IMG/VR virus record: IMGVR_UViG_3300042547_000060 | Span: 1-26,622 of that record | Strand: one strand, 5' to 3' | DNA length: 26,622 nucleotides | Source of the DNA: a virus | Shown here: piece after piece, positions 10,050 to 26,579 of the stretch | How positions within the stretch are numbered: the stretch's first letter is position 1 | Layout of the letters: every line of letters starts with the position of its first letter | Translations under genes and position numbers: made by a program | The notes under the pieces: generated by a model | Told to the model about the DNA's origin: nothing | What the model saw: only the letters and a program-made list of their open reading frames with translations | Database searches by the model: none

Positions 10050-10208
10050 ATGCCGATGGTTGGAGATAAAAAGTTCCCTTACACCGCTAAGGGCAAAAAG
10101 GAGGCTAAAGCCTATGGAGCCAAGAAAGCTATGCCTGTGGCGGTCATGGTTGCCATTAGCCGTCCTAAGATGGCCGCTAAAAAGATGCCCAAGGGCAAAA
10201 TGAAGTGA
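10050..10208 (+). CDS. Small Lys-rich protein 1
   Basis: 52 residues: begins MPMVGDKKFPYTAKGKKEAK and ends KKMPKGKMK, with 14 Lys and one Arg against two acidic residues. A hydrophobic patch (AMPVAVMVAIS) lies in the centre. The N-terminal GDKKFPYTAKGK pattern resembles small proteins I recall from aquatic phages next to capsid/tail adaptor genes, where no function is known. The gene is too short for many gene callers. Its start lies one base after the upstream stop, and its stop overlaps the next start (GTGA). Confidence 0.75.
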   Translation: MPMVGDKKFPYTAKGKKEAKAYGAKKAMPVAVMVAISRPKMAAKKMPKGKMK

Positions 10209-10363
10209 AAACCAAGGCTGAGAAGAAAATCTCCCGTGTAATGCGGGAGTACAAGGCTGGGAAGCTGCACTCTGGGTCGAAGAAAGGCCCAGAAGTGACA
10301 TCTCGCAAGCAAGCCATTGCCATTGCACTGTCTGAGGCCGGGAAATCCCGGAAGAAGAAGTGA
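10205..10363 (+). CDS. Small Lys-rich protein 2 (DUF6496-like)
   Basis: 52 residues from a GTG overlapping the upstream stop (GTGA). It contains V-M-R-E-Y-K-A-G-K-L-H-S-G-S-K-K and then TSRKQAIAIALSEAGKSRKK, which is the DUF6496 signature: a short basic protein with a conserved R-K-Q-A-I-A-I-A helix. It holds 13 Lys and four Arg against four Glu. Function of DUF6496 is unknown. The position inside a run of basic overlapping genes suggests a joint role, perhaps with virion DNA, but this is inference. The stop again overlaps the next gene as GTGA. Confidence 0.85.
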   Translation: MKTKAEKKISRVMREYKAGKLHSGSKKGPEVTSRKQAIAIALSEAGKSRKKK

Positions 10364-23815: not shown

Positions 23816-24054
23816 GTGTTCTTCTCTCTGAGCAGCTTTTCGATGTCCATGACGACATCTCGAACTTCATAGTCCCACTCTTCAATCTCAGCGTCCGTTA
23901 GCCCGACCCATGTGCGCTGTGCTGGTTGCTTCTCAGCCTGCTCGATTGCGGCGCTCAATGCGTTTATGGCTGCGCCAATTTTGTTTTCAGGCCACTGACG
24001 AGTATTTGCCAGATACAGCGCCTCCAGCGCCTGCTTCATTGCTTCGATGCTCAT
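23812..24054 (-). CDS. Small hypothetical protein with MKQALEAL motif
   Basis: 80 residues. The N-terminus MSIEAMKQALEALYLANTRQ and the IEQAEKQPAQRTWVGLTDAE segment are recurring building blocks of small phage/prophage proteins (a helix with A-L-E-A-L, then a linker, then W-V-G-L-T-D-A-E-I). The last 30 residues form a charged helix. Start and stop overlap neighbours as ATGA. Function not known. Confidence 0.82.
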   Translation of the reverse strand: MSIEAMKQALEALYLANTRQWPENKIGAAINALSAAIEQAEKQPAQRTWVGLTDAEIEEWDYEVRDVVMDIEKLLREKNT

Positions 24055-24269
24055 CTGCGACTCTTCTTCATCTTTGGCATTTCTACCGTTACCTTGCGAG
24101 GATTGATGCCCTCAAAAGCCCCGACTCTGGAGGCCAGTGAGGGGTAAGGCTCTACGCCTGTCTTGCGCTTGTCGTTGAGAACTCTAGAGGCCTGATAAGA
24201 GCGTTTCCTATCAGTCTCTAGATCTCTGAACGACAGTTGCGCCTTGTAGTCTTTGTCGAATGGGTTCAT
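24051..24269 (-). CDS. Small basic hypothetical protein
   Basis: 72 residues, rich in Arg and Lys (18 of 72 by eye), with MNPFDKDYKAQLSFRDLETD at the N-terminus and a KMKKSRR end. It is not recognised. The ATG has no clear ribosome site (GGCCACCTTTTT upstream), and a 95-base gap separates it from the cysteine-rich peptide gene. The stop overlaps the next gene (ATGA). The basic tail suggests nucleic-acid contact; this is inference. Confidence 0.65.
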   Translation of the reverse strand: MNPFDKDYKAQLSFRDLETDRKRSYQASRVLNDKRKTGVEPYPSLASRVGAFEGINPRKVTVEMPKMKKSRR

Positions 24270-24364
24270 AAAAAGGTGGCCTACTCGCTGCGTCTGTGAT
24301 AGCTAAACGGGACGGAGTTGCACCGCGACCTGACACCCGCACAGCATCCGCTTTCGGCCATTGA

Positions 24365-24514
24365 TTAGAAGCAGTTGGTCGTACAGTTGCCGAAATAACA
24401 GCAGGTAGTACATGTAACCATACGTCCATTCATGGTGTAAGTATGGGTAGAACAAGATGCCCAGGCTCCGGTGGTTACCAGGGCGATTCCAATGGCTGCA
24501 AAAAACTTCTTCAT
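24365..24514 (-). CDS. Exported six-cysteine peptide
   Basis: 49 residues, too short for usual length cut-offs. It starts ATGAAGAAG with a near-perfect Shine-Dalgarno (AGAGGTGA) just upstream, and the ATG overlaps the upstream stop as ATGA. Residues 1-19 form a classical signal peptide: KK, a hydrophobic FFAAIGIALVTTG core, and an A-W-A cut site. The predicted mature part is about 30 residues with six Cys (Cys21, 35, 38, 39, 44, 47) and Thr-rich spacing, ending N-C-F. No lipobox is seen. It is likely exported to the periplasm and disulfide-bonded. Function unknown; the pattern may have relatives in other phages, which I cannot check. Confidence 0.78.
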   Translation of the reverse strand: MKKFFAAIGIALVTTGAWASCSTHTYTMNGRMVTCTTCCYFGNCTTNCF

Positions 24515-24708
24515 GCTGTCACCTCTTTAACTTTGGCTTGGGTTTGTTCCAGGGCTTTGATCAACTCTTCAACTTGTCCTTGATCAAGAGAGATGTTCAT
24601 GCTGCCGTTGAGGGCATAGATGGACAGCAGGATCTTGTTTTGCAGCAAGGATACGAAGACGTTTTGCTCTCCGTTTTTGACTTTGACTTGCATCGTGTGA
24701 TGGTTCAT
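24511..24708 (-). CDS. Small hypothetical protein
   Basis: 65 residues, ATG overlapping the upstream stop and preceded by GGAG (GGAGAAATC). A short N-terminal beta part (MQVKVKNGEQNVFVSLLQNK) precedes a mid segment GSMNISLDQGQVEELIKALE and a helix ending KVKEVTA. A second ATG at residue 6 is also possible. The stop overlaps the exported-peptide gene (ATGA), so the two are probably translated together. Not recognised. Confidence 0.72.
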   Translation of the reverse strand: MNHHTMQVKVKNGEQNVFVSLLQNKILLSIYALNGSMNISLDQGQVEELIKALEQTQAKVKEVTA

Positions 24709-24914
24709 GATTTCTCCAGTGTGTAGTACCAGTAGGGGCCTTTGCGTTGACAGGCAATGTTGATGCCGTTTTGTCTCAACTCTGAGATGATTGAGTTGAC
24801 AGCGCAGACATTCGCATGTCTGATGATGTCCAGAGTGCTAAATTCGCCTCCAACTTCCAGCAACTTCAACACCCTGTTTAGCCGATCACTTTTATCGAGT
24901 CGGGCGCTGTTCAT
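24705..24914 (-). CDS. Winged-helix DNA-binding protein
   Basis: 69 residues. Residues 9-38 carry two helices (SDRLNRVLKLLEVGG; STLDIIRHANVCAVNSIISE), followed by LRQNGINIACQRKGPYWYYT as a beta-wing, which fits a small winged helix-turn-helix. The A-N-V-C-A-V-N-S segment would be the recognition helix. Similar phage proteins with DIIR-ANVCAVNS are known to me by pattern only. ATG is two bases after the upstream stop and has no strong ribosome site; the stop overlaps the next gene (ATGA). It may regulate early genes. Confidence 0.8.
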   Translation of the reverse strand: MNSARLDKSDRLNRVLKLLEVGGEFSTLDIIRHANVCAVNSIISELRQNGINIACQRKGPYWYYTLEKS

Positions 24915-24916
24915 GT

Positions 24917-25174
24917 TCAGAACGGCAGGTCTGCGTCATCAATGTCAGGAGCCTGACGAACTGGCTTGCGCTCTTCCTCTTCCTTCTTGGGATTGTTGAT
25001 GTAAGCCCAGCCATCCCAGCCACCCTCTTTGAGCGGGATGCTATCGATTTTGAGCATCGGGCCGTTCTTGGTGTCAATGATGCTGCCAATACGGCTATAC
25101 CGCTTCTTAACCTCACCCTGGGCATTCTTGTACTCGCCAACAACGCAGGTAATTTCTTTCAACACTTTGCTCAT
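24917..25174 (-). CDS. SSB-like mini-protein with acidic tail
   Basis: 85 residues from ATG 25174, with GGAG six bases upstream (the TTG at 25186 is not used). The N-terminal 60 residues are beta-rich (ITCVVGEYKNAQGEVKKRYS; IGSIIDTKNGPMLKIDSIPL; GGWDGWAYINN). The C-terminus ends DIDDADLPF, which copies the conserved acidic tip of bacterial SSB (DDDIPF) that docks replication and repair partners. The body is shorter than a usual OB-fold SSB, so it may be a compact or altered one. It follows the exonuclease gene in a recombination operon, which supports ssDNA binding. Confidence 0.78.
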   Translation of the reverse strand: MSKVLKEITCVVGEYKNAQGEVKKRYSRIGSIIDTKNGPMLKIDSIPLKEGGWDGWAYINNPKKEEEERKPVRQAPDIDDADLPF

Positions 25175-25175
25175 T

Positions 25176-25793
25176 TCATTCTCCAATCTTCTGTTTCAAC
25201 GCTTGCACTTTTTCTTCCACTTCAGCCAGGAACTTCTTGACTTCAGTTTCAGCCTCTTCAATCCACCTGTCATCCCGATTTACCCTAACGATGAATAGTT
25301 GGGCTTTCGGTGGAAACCGTGGGTCAAAAACAACATAGTCACACCATGGCCGGTCAGCACAGCGCATCTGCCATTGCATCTGAGCAAAGTACTTTGACTC
25401 TACCGGATTGTTGGACAGCATCACTTCCAGGAAAGTCTTGGACTCTGGGCACTTGATCTCAACCATGCCACCCTCTACCAGCCCATCAGGAGACGCTCCA
25501 GCCATCGCAATGTTCGGGTGAGTGATAAACCCCACCTCCTCCACCAGAACGCCCCTATAGGCCTCGTATGCAGCCCTGGCGAACTGCTCTTGCTCAATGC
25601 CCCACTGGATGGCCGCACTGGTGTAGCCGTCTGCTCTGTTGCCAGTGATGCGCTCCAGGACTAGCTGAGTCATGTAATGGCCGCGATCAGCGCCGTAACC
25701 GGTCTTGGTCTTCGCTAGCACTTTGTGCAGATTGCTGGCGGTGACTTTACCCAGACGCTGCTGGAACCACTCGTCGGTGCGCTGCTCATCCAC
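25176..25793 (-). CDS. YqaJ/lambda-type recombination exonuclease
   Basis: 205 residues, GTG start with AAGGAG five bases upstream; it overlaps the previous gene by eight nt. The PD-(D/E)xK core is visible: Glu67 in WGIEQE, then Asp103 (GASPDG), Glu112 and Lys114 (VEIKC), followed by the YFAQMQWQM helix. These match the YqaJ/lambda exonuclease family, which resects one strand of double-stranded DNA 5'-3' to prepare ssDNA for an annealing protein. The annealing-protein gene lies upstream in the same operon, making a Redα/β-like pair. The stop is inside the ribosome site of the SSB-like gene. Confidence 0.9.
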   Translation of the reverse strand: MDEQRTDEWFQQRLGKVTASNLHKVLAKTKTGYGADRGHYMTQLVLERITGNRADGYTSAAIQWGIEQEQFARAAYEAYRGVLVEEVGFITHPNIAMAGASPDGLVEGGMVEIKCPESKTFLEVMLSNNPVESKYFAQMQWQMRCADRPWCDYVVFDPRFPPKAQLFIVRVNRDDRWIEEAETEVKKFLAEVEEKVQALKQKIGE

Positions 25794-26013
25794 GGTAACT
25801 CCTTACTTTTAACATTTCGTCTGCCATCTCATAAGCCACTTGAGCAATGTCAATTTCGTGTTCTGCCCAATCAGGCAAAAAGCCCCCTGATTTACTCCAA
25901 ATACCCTGCAAAACTTGAGCCGCAAAGTAATCGCGCATGGTCATGCTGTTGGCATAGCCGCCGTATTTGGACAGCCATGTGTCATAAGTTTCAATTGTGT
26001 TGGTGTCTTTCAT
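25786..26013 (-). CDS. Small protein between annealing protein and exonuclease
   Basis: 75 residues when started at ATG 26013, which overlaps the annealing-protein stop (ATGA) and is preceded by GGAGAAAGCAGC. Features include TYDTWLSKYGGYANSMTMRD, YFAAQVLQGI, and a helix IAQVAYEMADEMLKVR near the C-terminus. The M-x-x-R-D-Y-F-A-A and A-x-x-A-Y-x-M-A-D-x-M-L motifs occur in a frequent small phage/prophage protein of unknown function. A role in recombination is inferred from position only. Confidence 0.85.
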   Translation of the reverse strand: MKDTNTIETYDTWLSKYGGYANSMTMRDYFAAQVLQGIWSKSGGFLPDWAEHEIDIAQVAYEMADEMLKVRSYRG

Positions 26014-26579
26014 GCTGCTTTCTCCTGTTTGGCACGAGCGATCCTGGCTGCTTTGGCCTCGATCACCTTCTTGATGGATTCCTGGTGGCCTTGGCAAGCC
26101 TCGTAGGCCTGTTTGTAGACCGTCTGAAGCTCTTCCCCGGTCACAGTGGCCTCGATGGCTGCAAGCCAATCTGTAATGTCAGGCGCATCACCCTCTGGCA
26201 GATCTTCCCCGGCATAGATGTACAGGCCCAAACCGTGTAGGCTCAGAGCCTTAGTCATGCAGCGCATGATGGCCGTATTGACCGCAAACGCATCTGGGTT
26301 AGGGATAGCCTTGTTGCGGTGATCCATAACCGGAAGCTGGCAGGTCATGGGCTTGCCAAAGATCGTCACAGTGACCCAGACCAGCGCAGTGCCTCCTGGC
26401 AGGGTCATGAACGGCTCTTCGGTGTACTGGTCGCGCTTGAAAGTCTCGACCTTGAATGTGGCTGTTGGATCAGCCTTCAGTGCTTCAGCCCAGGCCCAAG
26501 CCCACGATAAGTAGGTCAGGTTGGACTTCTTCTCGGTATGCTCGTTGACGTTAGTCTTGAGCAGATTCTCGATACTCAT
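26010..26579 (-). CDS. Single-strand annealing protein (Sak/DUF1071)
   Basis: 189 residues, ATG with AAGGAG upstream. The N-terminal KTNVNEHTEKKSNLTYLSWA and WAEALKADPTAT segments and the LPVMDHRNKAIPNPDAFAVN core followed by TAIMRCMTKALSLHGLGLYI are the signature of the DUF1071/Sak family of phage annealing proteins. These bind ssDNA and anneal complementary strands for recombination. The C-terminal ~55 residues form a basic helix (KKVIEAKAARIARAKQEK). It acts with the exonuclease two genes downstream. Its promoter must lie to the right of the window edge or in the last 43 bases, where none is obvious. Confidence 0.9.
   Translation of the reverse strand: MSIENLLKTNVNEHTEKKSNLTYLSWAWAWAEALKADPTATFKVETFKRDQYTEEPFMTLPGGTALVWVTVTIFGKPMTCQLPVMDHRNKAIPNPDAFAVNTAIMRCMTKALSLHGLGLYIYAGEDLPEGDAPDITDWLAAIEATVTGEELQTVYKQAYEACQGHQESIKKVIEAKAARIARAKQEKAA

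Follow-up and report, generated by a model that had tools for sequence, protein, structure and literature searches.

A predicted exported six-cysteine peptide family encoded in the recombination operons of environmental phages

Is an open reading frame of 49 codons, lying between two other small genes in the recombination operon of an environmental virus, a real gene, and what might its product do? We addressed this question for the minus-strand ORF 24514..24365 of the window, i.e., the whole 26,622-nucleotide stretch under analysis (IMG/VR record IMGVR_UViG_3300042547_000060), whose DNA has no match to known phages. The portal, connector and tail genes of the window look podovirus-like, with no tail-tape-measure family above cut-off. 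The ORF encodes a 49-aa product, MKKFFAAIGIALVTTGAWASCSTHTYTMNGRMVTCTTCCYFGNCTTNCF, with six Cys residues downstream of an A-W-A motif; cleavage at the predicted site would split it into a signal peptide, MKKFFAAIGIALVTTGAWA, and a mature part, SCSTHTYTMNGRMVTCTTCCYFGNCTTNCF. A ribosome-binding site, AGAGGTGA (24526..24519), is separated by 4 nucleotides (CAGC) from the ATG, whose overlap with the TGA that ends the 65-aa gene upstream forms an ATGA. An earlier, sequence-only reading had described the ORF in these terms (49 residues, A-W-A, six Cys, AGAGGTGA and ATGA coupling), accurately in each of them. The features of the locus are as follows.

24365..24514, minus: gene of the predicted exported six-Cys peptide, 49 codons, stop included; supported by its family and by purifying selection
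24458..24514, minus: predicted signal peptide, residues 1-19, with A-W-A end; A-x-A kept in the family
24368..24457, minus: predicted mature peptide of 30 residues, with AlphaFold2 strands at 2-9, 12-21 and 24-29
24519..24526, minus: ribosome-binding site, read from the sequence
24511..24708, minus: upstream 65-aa gene, ATGA-coupled, of no known family
24705..24914, minus: 69-aa winged-helix-like protein (phrog_35777; weak HTH_39 match)
24917..25186, minus: 89-aa protein with DIDDADLPF end, an SSB-like acidic C-terminal tail that suggests an SSB
25176..25793, minus: YqaJ/RecE-type exonuclease (phrog_149, E 1e-47)
26010..26579, minus: Sak-like ssDNA-annealing protein (phrog_659, E 7e-51)
24051..24269, minus: downstream 72-aa gene, of no known family
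24276..24361, minus: structured RNA element (covariance model [CM] match of 63.3 bits, E 2.3e-18, this copy being one of the 27 sequences in the model that scores it)
24273..24520, minus: stretch of about 248 bp with the peptide gene and the RNA element, absent from three related phages (L173-L175)

Relatives of the peptide are encoded on 533 IMG/VR stretches in a protein scan, from which the best 80 of the 533 were kept, and on at least 525 stretches in a second scan, which used a divergent alignment. The two scans overlap and their contigs are redundant; 103 loci were left after removal of those with near-identical surroundings. Among 97 distinct ungapped nucleotide sequences, the mature part had a pN/pS of 0.23 and the signal peptide one of 0.46, with a pS of 0.74-0.84 that is close to saturation. 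TGC and TGT are both used freely at all Cys positions in the same 97 sequences. Together, the pN/pS values and the free choice of Cys codons make it unlikely that overlapping ORFs on the opposite strand are the selected product. The claim that this is a real gene was thus borne out by the relatives and by the selection on the mature part, and the minus-strand ORF is almost certainly a genuine phage gene.

The second IMG/VR scan selected on VTCTTCC, and the motif filters required the Cys pattern. Because of this selection bias, members were also sought through the adjoining RNA element rather than through their own sequence, by examining the sequence immediately before the 222 RNA elements with enough flank for small ORFs whose start resembles a signal peptide. 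This search yielded 23 distinct ORFs, 18 of which belong to the six-Cys family, and all 18 have six Cys residues. The residues beside the Cys vary in these members (VIC, TTC, ATC, TVCC). The sequence-only reading had held that a lack of syntenic homologues with conserved Cys in related phages would count against it; the outcome favors it, since homologues occupy syntenic positions and keep the six Cys.

The same reading had called the gene hidden, which does not hold: UniProt/BFVD entry A0A6J5M8Q5, from an uncultured Caudovirales phage, is a 49-aa protein named “Lipoprotein” whose mature part is 100% identical. It is the same protein as that of the window or a very near copy, and the entry has no function attached. 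A 55% identical homologue is present in two Manatee Spring phage records. In MW202462, the deposited annotation at 33654-33896 is an ORF opposite a homologue of the peptide, and the homologue itself was missed. No Pfam, NCBIfam or PHROG family above cut-off covers the window peptide, a profile search of PDB sequences gave nothing below E 1, T4 Spackle (gp61.3) included, and plasmids gave only weak MerP-type matches. We found no description of the six-Cys family in the literature on exported phage peptides, in which subscription journals were thinly covered.

The company of the gene is that of a recombination operon. On the minus strand of the window, the order is Sak-like gene, YqaJ, SSB-tailed gene, winged-helix-like gene, 65-aa gene, peptide, RNA element and small genes. 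Within 6 kb of the peptide, a Sak-type gene was found in 65 and a YqaJ gene in 58 of the 103 non-redundant loci. For the 95 loci with enough upstream sequence, a strict pattern identified an SSB-tailed gene no farther than 700 bp upstream in 39, several more having looser tails, and a replication gene follows the peptide in 26, of which 9 are preceded by a Cro-like gene. As the peptide gene sits among recombination and replication genes, we infer that it is read early in infection; the earlier claim of an early-type strand is supported to the extent that timing can be taken from neighbors. No integrase (PF00589) was detected in 32 family contigs of 22 to 66 kb, with 14 of 14 control genomes positive; the search covered contig fragments, in which absence is no proof of a lytic life.

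The peptide gene is accessory, near-identical phages being without it. In three of them (L173, L174 and L175), identity to the window is 96% until the 65-aa gene ends and 91% once the 72-aa gene begins, the 248 bp between being absent. In another (L184), the RNA element is kept, whereas all that is left of the peptide is its final codons, fused to the 65-aa gene. This remnant represents a loss of the peptide gene, so peptide and RNA need not go together. Outside viruses, the only match in 84,980 species genomes is on a 5.3-kb contig of a Burkholderiales metagenome-assembled genome (MAG; homologue at L083:3536-3685, plus strand), which carries MerR, VIT/VWA and WYL genes, none of its genes being evidently from a phage. 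It may be a rare chromosomal copy, or a misbinned or captured piece. Some 700 Burkholderiales genomes otherwise gave partial matches only, mostly to residues 1-38, which, judged collectively and with a frame length of about 96, are taken to be of the MerP type.

The RNA element is built of a helix P1, a GAAA/GAGUA internal loop, GC pairs, a GGAUG/ACGCA segment, a helix P2 and a variable apex; the internal loop fits the loop-E (sarcin-ricin) consensus. Its covariation score was 0.477, versus 0.139 in shuffles, for the 27-sequence alignment, and among more than 210 distinct elements the excess over shuffles was 10-18 sd for pairs 1-5 of P1 and 10-14 sd for the initial three pairs of the inner helix. 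With at least 235 copies on IMG/VR viral stretches in two scans and no match in Rfam, it is a well-supported structured element. It lies 5 to 8 nucleotides past the peptide stop (offset as counted by the script) in 32 of 102 non-redundant loci, versus 2 of 4,120 random windows in the same search. Conversely, a VTC-type peptide gene is directly upstream of 14 of the at least 235 copies. Most elements are located within 15 nucleotides past a stop, with a start 5-30 nucleotides further on, and the gene that precedes them is often an SSB-tailed or a recombination gene, so that the RNA belongs to the operons and not to the peptide alone. Further copies include L001:2042-2112, L086:9645-9710 and L213:1829-1905 (minus), and the element is possibly of greater interest than the peptide. 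The apex of two copies (L013 and L110) contains a tRNA T-arm-like stretch, GTGAGTTCGAATCTCAC; ARAGORN called no tRNA in either.

Other elements also occupy the 3′ side of the peptide gene. In L143, an int-alpA RNA (Rfam RF02996, 38.6 bits) is found directly past it at 10162-10230 (plus), and segments resembling that RNA follow the peptide in L105, L112, L114, L115 and L130. A third element, a long hairpin, GGGUUACACAUGnnGUCUGCUGG...GAGACnnCAGGUGUAGCCC, followed by T8 (folding z-score of -4.9), is present in L082 at about 923-1018, and the hairpin-T8 arrangement also follows the peptide gene in L091, L149 and L107.

The claim that the peptide is exported is supported by the conservation of the cleavage motif. 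Of 108 distinct members, 107 have A-x-A (or V/T-x-A) before the first Cys, and the features expected for signal peptidase I are present, i.e., a charged n-region, a hydrophobic h-region and small residues at -3/-1 (107 of 108 members). The name “Lipoprotein” given to A0A6J5M8Q5 raises another possibility, namely that signal peptidase II cuts before the first Cys, yielding a small lipidated outer-membrane protein. The superinfection-exclusion proteins of the Cor/Llp type are small exported phage lipoproteins of this kind, acting at the outer membrane. A loose PROSITE-like lipobox is indeed matched by 57 of the 108 members, and there are weak LPAM_1 matches below cut-off. However, the canonical lipobox [LVI][ASTVI][GAS]C at the first Cys occurs in 0 of 108, residue -3 is Trp or Tyr in 106 and residue -1 is Gln, Asn, Met or Thr in 34. 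Lipidation of that Cys would moreover make the number of thiols odd, and the predicted disulfide bond 2-19 would be lost. On the grounds of residues -3/-1 and of the missing canonical lipobox, we rejected the lipoprotein reading as most improbable; unlike the Cor/Llp proteins, the six-Cys family does not look like one of lipoproteins, and the UniProt name is probably wrong, the lipobox not being conserved in the family. The retention of A-x-A together with the lack of any canonical lipobox argues that the peptide is very probably exported through signal peptidase I and not lipidated.

AlphaFold2, run with a 58-sequence alignment, predicted three strands in the mature part with a mean pLDDT of 91.2 and a pTM of 0.42, a low value that is expected for a 30-residue model. 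The two-residue turns at 10-11 and 22-23 set the registers i+j=21 and i+j=45, and therefore place Cys 2 opposite Cys 19, Cys 20 opposite Cys 25 and Cys 16 opposite Cys 29 (mature numbering; pairs were read from strand register, not from distances). The predicted disulfide pattern 2-19, 16-29, 20-25 is likely on the basis of this model, and the three bonds would probably lock the peptide into a three-stranded meander. Relatives with eight Cys bear on this point. Their extra Cys are found solely at positions 8 and 13, which are paired in the predicted register (8+13=21): among 107 scorable members, 9 have both, none has a single one and 98 have neither, the nine partly sharing ancestry and thus representing few independent events. 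That the extra Cys come as a pair supports the predicted cross-strand register. The turns differ among eight-Cys members (DQGR, DSGR, NANG, GPNG), and the model of one of them has the same strands as the window peptide (pLDDT of 88.9). The peptide thus appears to be of the disulfide type, as had been proposed, with six conserved Cys, a predicted cross-strand pairing and the paired 8+13 gain.

Six Cys and a common His, along with the weak MerP matches, would also suit a periplasmic peptide that binds metal or buffers thiols, in a metallothionein-like or MerP-like manner. We consider this very improbable: the MerP model (NCBIfam TIGR02052) scored 12.8 bits on the window protein and 14.5 on a relative, against a cut-off of 92.55, and the gain of two Cys paired across a hairpin suits disulfides better. 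Fold searches returned common beta arrangements only, the best Z of 3.2 being tied with unrelated chains. The small, disulfide-rich toxin Ms13-1 of Metridium senile (PDB 8bvc) aligned over 27 residues (rmsd 1.4, Z 2.7), a Z likewise tied with many unrelated chains, which indicates a common arrangement and not kinship with the phage peptide. A C-terminal aromatic residue mimicking outer-membrane proteins was weakened as an idea by three members that end in Asn, and a presumed likeness to the insect TxT antifreeze proteins was dropped, the peptide having just one partial repeat.

The slot past the upstream genes is not reserved for one family. Of the 23 ORFs reached by way of the RNA, four encode an exported peptide of another kind, which has four Cys (SCPxGxxYxCxxxxNGKMxCGC). 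Scanning for this family gave 29 loci; for 7 of 24 distinct proteins, the RNA comes directly past the stop. Peptides of this four-Cys family (CPxxxxYxCxxxxNGKMxCGC) occupy the same operon position in L371, L405, L292, L299 and L485-L513. The presence of two unrelated exported disulfide-type peptides in one slot suggests one job with different partners. A broader scheme, in which recombination operons would contain an exchange slot, the loop-E RNA marking its 3′ side and regulating the cassette or aiding its movement, and the six/eight-Cys and four-Cys families would interchange as periplasmic effectors, is rather doubtful.

Two unrelated families of small, exported, disulfide-rich peptides in one slot might also be expected of antimicrobial or competition peptides, released at lysis and acting on other cells. 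Nevertheless, 94 of the 108 members have a mature net charge of +1 and the remaining 14 a net charge of 0, hence no cationic peptide, and the gene lies among replication genes with no recognizable release or immunity gene beside it. We regard this role as quite improbable; a membrane-lysing peptide in particular appears unlikely because of the net charge.

An early effector in the periplasm or envelope, which would shut out superinfecting phages or block an envelope-level response of the host, is the likeliest reading, held tentatively. As envisaged, the gene of the recombination operon would give a Sec-exported peptide cut by signal peptidase I after A-W-A, and the host periplasmic Dsb system would oxidize its six Cys, so that disulfides 2-19, 16-29 and 20-25 would lock the three-stranded beta-meander of 30 residues. 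Once folded, this neutral peptide, rich in Thr and Asn, would work in the periplasm of the infected cell or at its outer membrane, where a single protein would most likely be its binding partner. We count in favor of such an effector the conservation of the family, A-x-A, the meander, the paired Cys, the place in the operon, the lack of integrase, the accessory status and the second family. Export and an early-type position, together with an endolysin gene on the opposite strand in the carrier phages, might equally suit a modulator that tunes lysis or protects the envelope of the infected cell itself rather than excluding other phages; the peptide gene is nonetheless outside any lysis cassette, and we hold this to be unlikely. 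The bacterial-chromosome-like copy (L083) is left unexplained by a purely phage-serving role.

If the effector reading is true, a 30-residue, three-disulfide domain would be an exported protein that is widespread among environmental phages, one from a family so far without a family model and under a misleading lipoprotein name. Such peptides would form a class of periplasmic phage effectors that can be put to the test, and the domain would be a naturally occurring scaffold locked by disulfides.

No homology to known exclusion proteins was found in Pfam, NCBIfam, PHROG or PDB sequences. A functional model of an exclusion effector is nevertheless provided by T4 Spackle (gp61.3), which is cleaved in the periplasm and inhibits the gp5 lysozyme (PMC7650644). 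Like the window peptide, Spackle is phage encoded; its signal peptide is cleaved and it contains a disulfide (PMC7650644), two features that are predicted for the window peptide. In contrast, it is larger, with a fold of its own, one disulfide and no sequence similarity, and a counterpart of the gp5 lysozyme is hypothetical here. We claim no membership of the Spackle family for the six-Cys peptide; the most economical reading is that it would work like T4 Spackle in kind.
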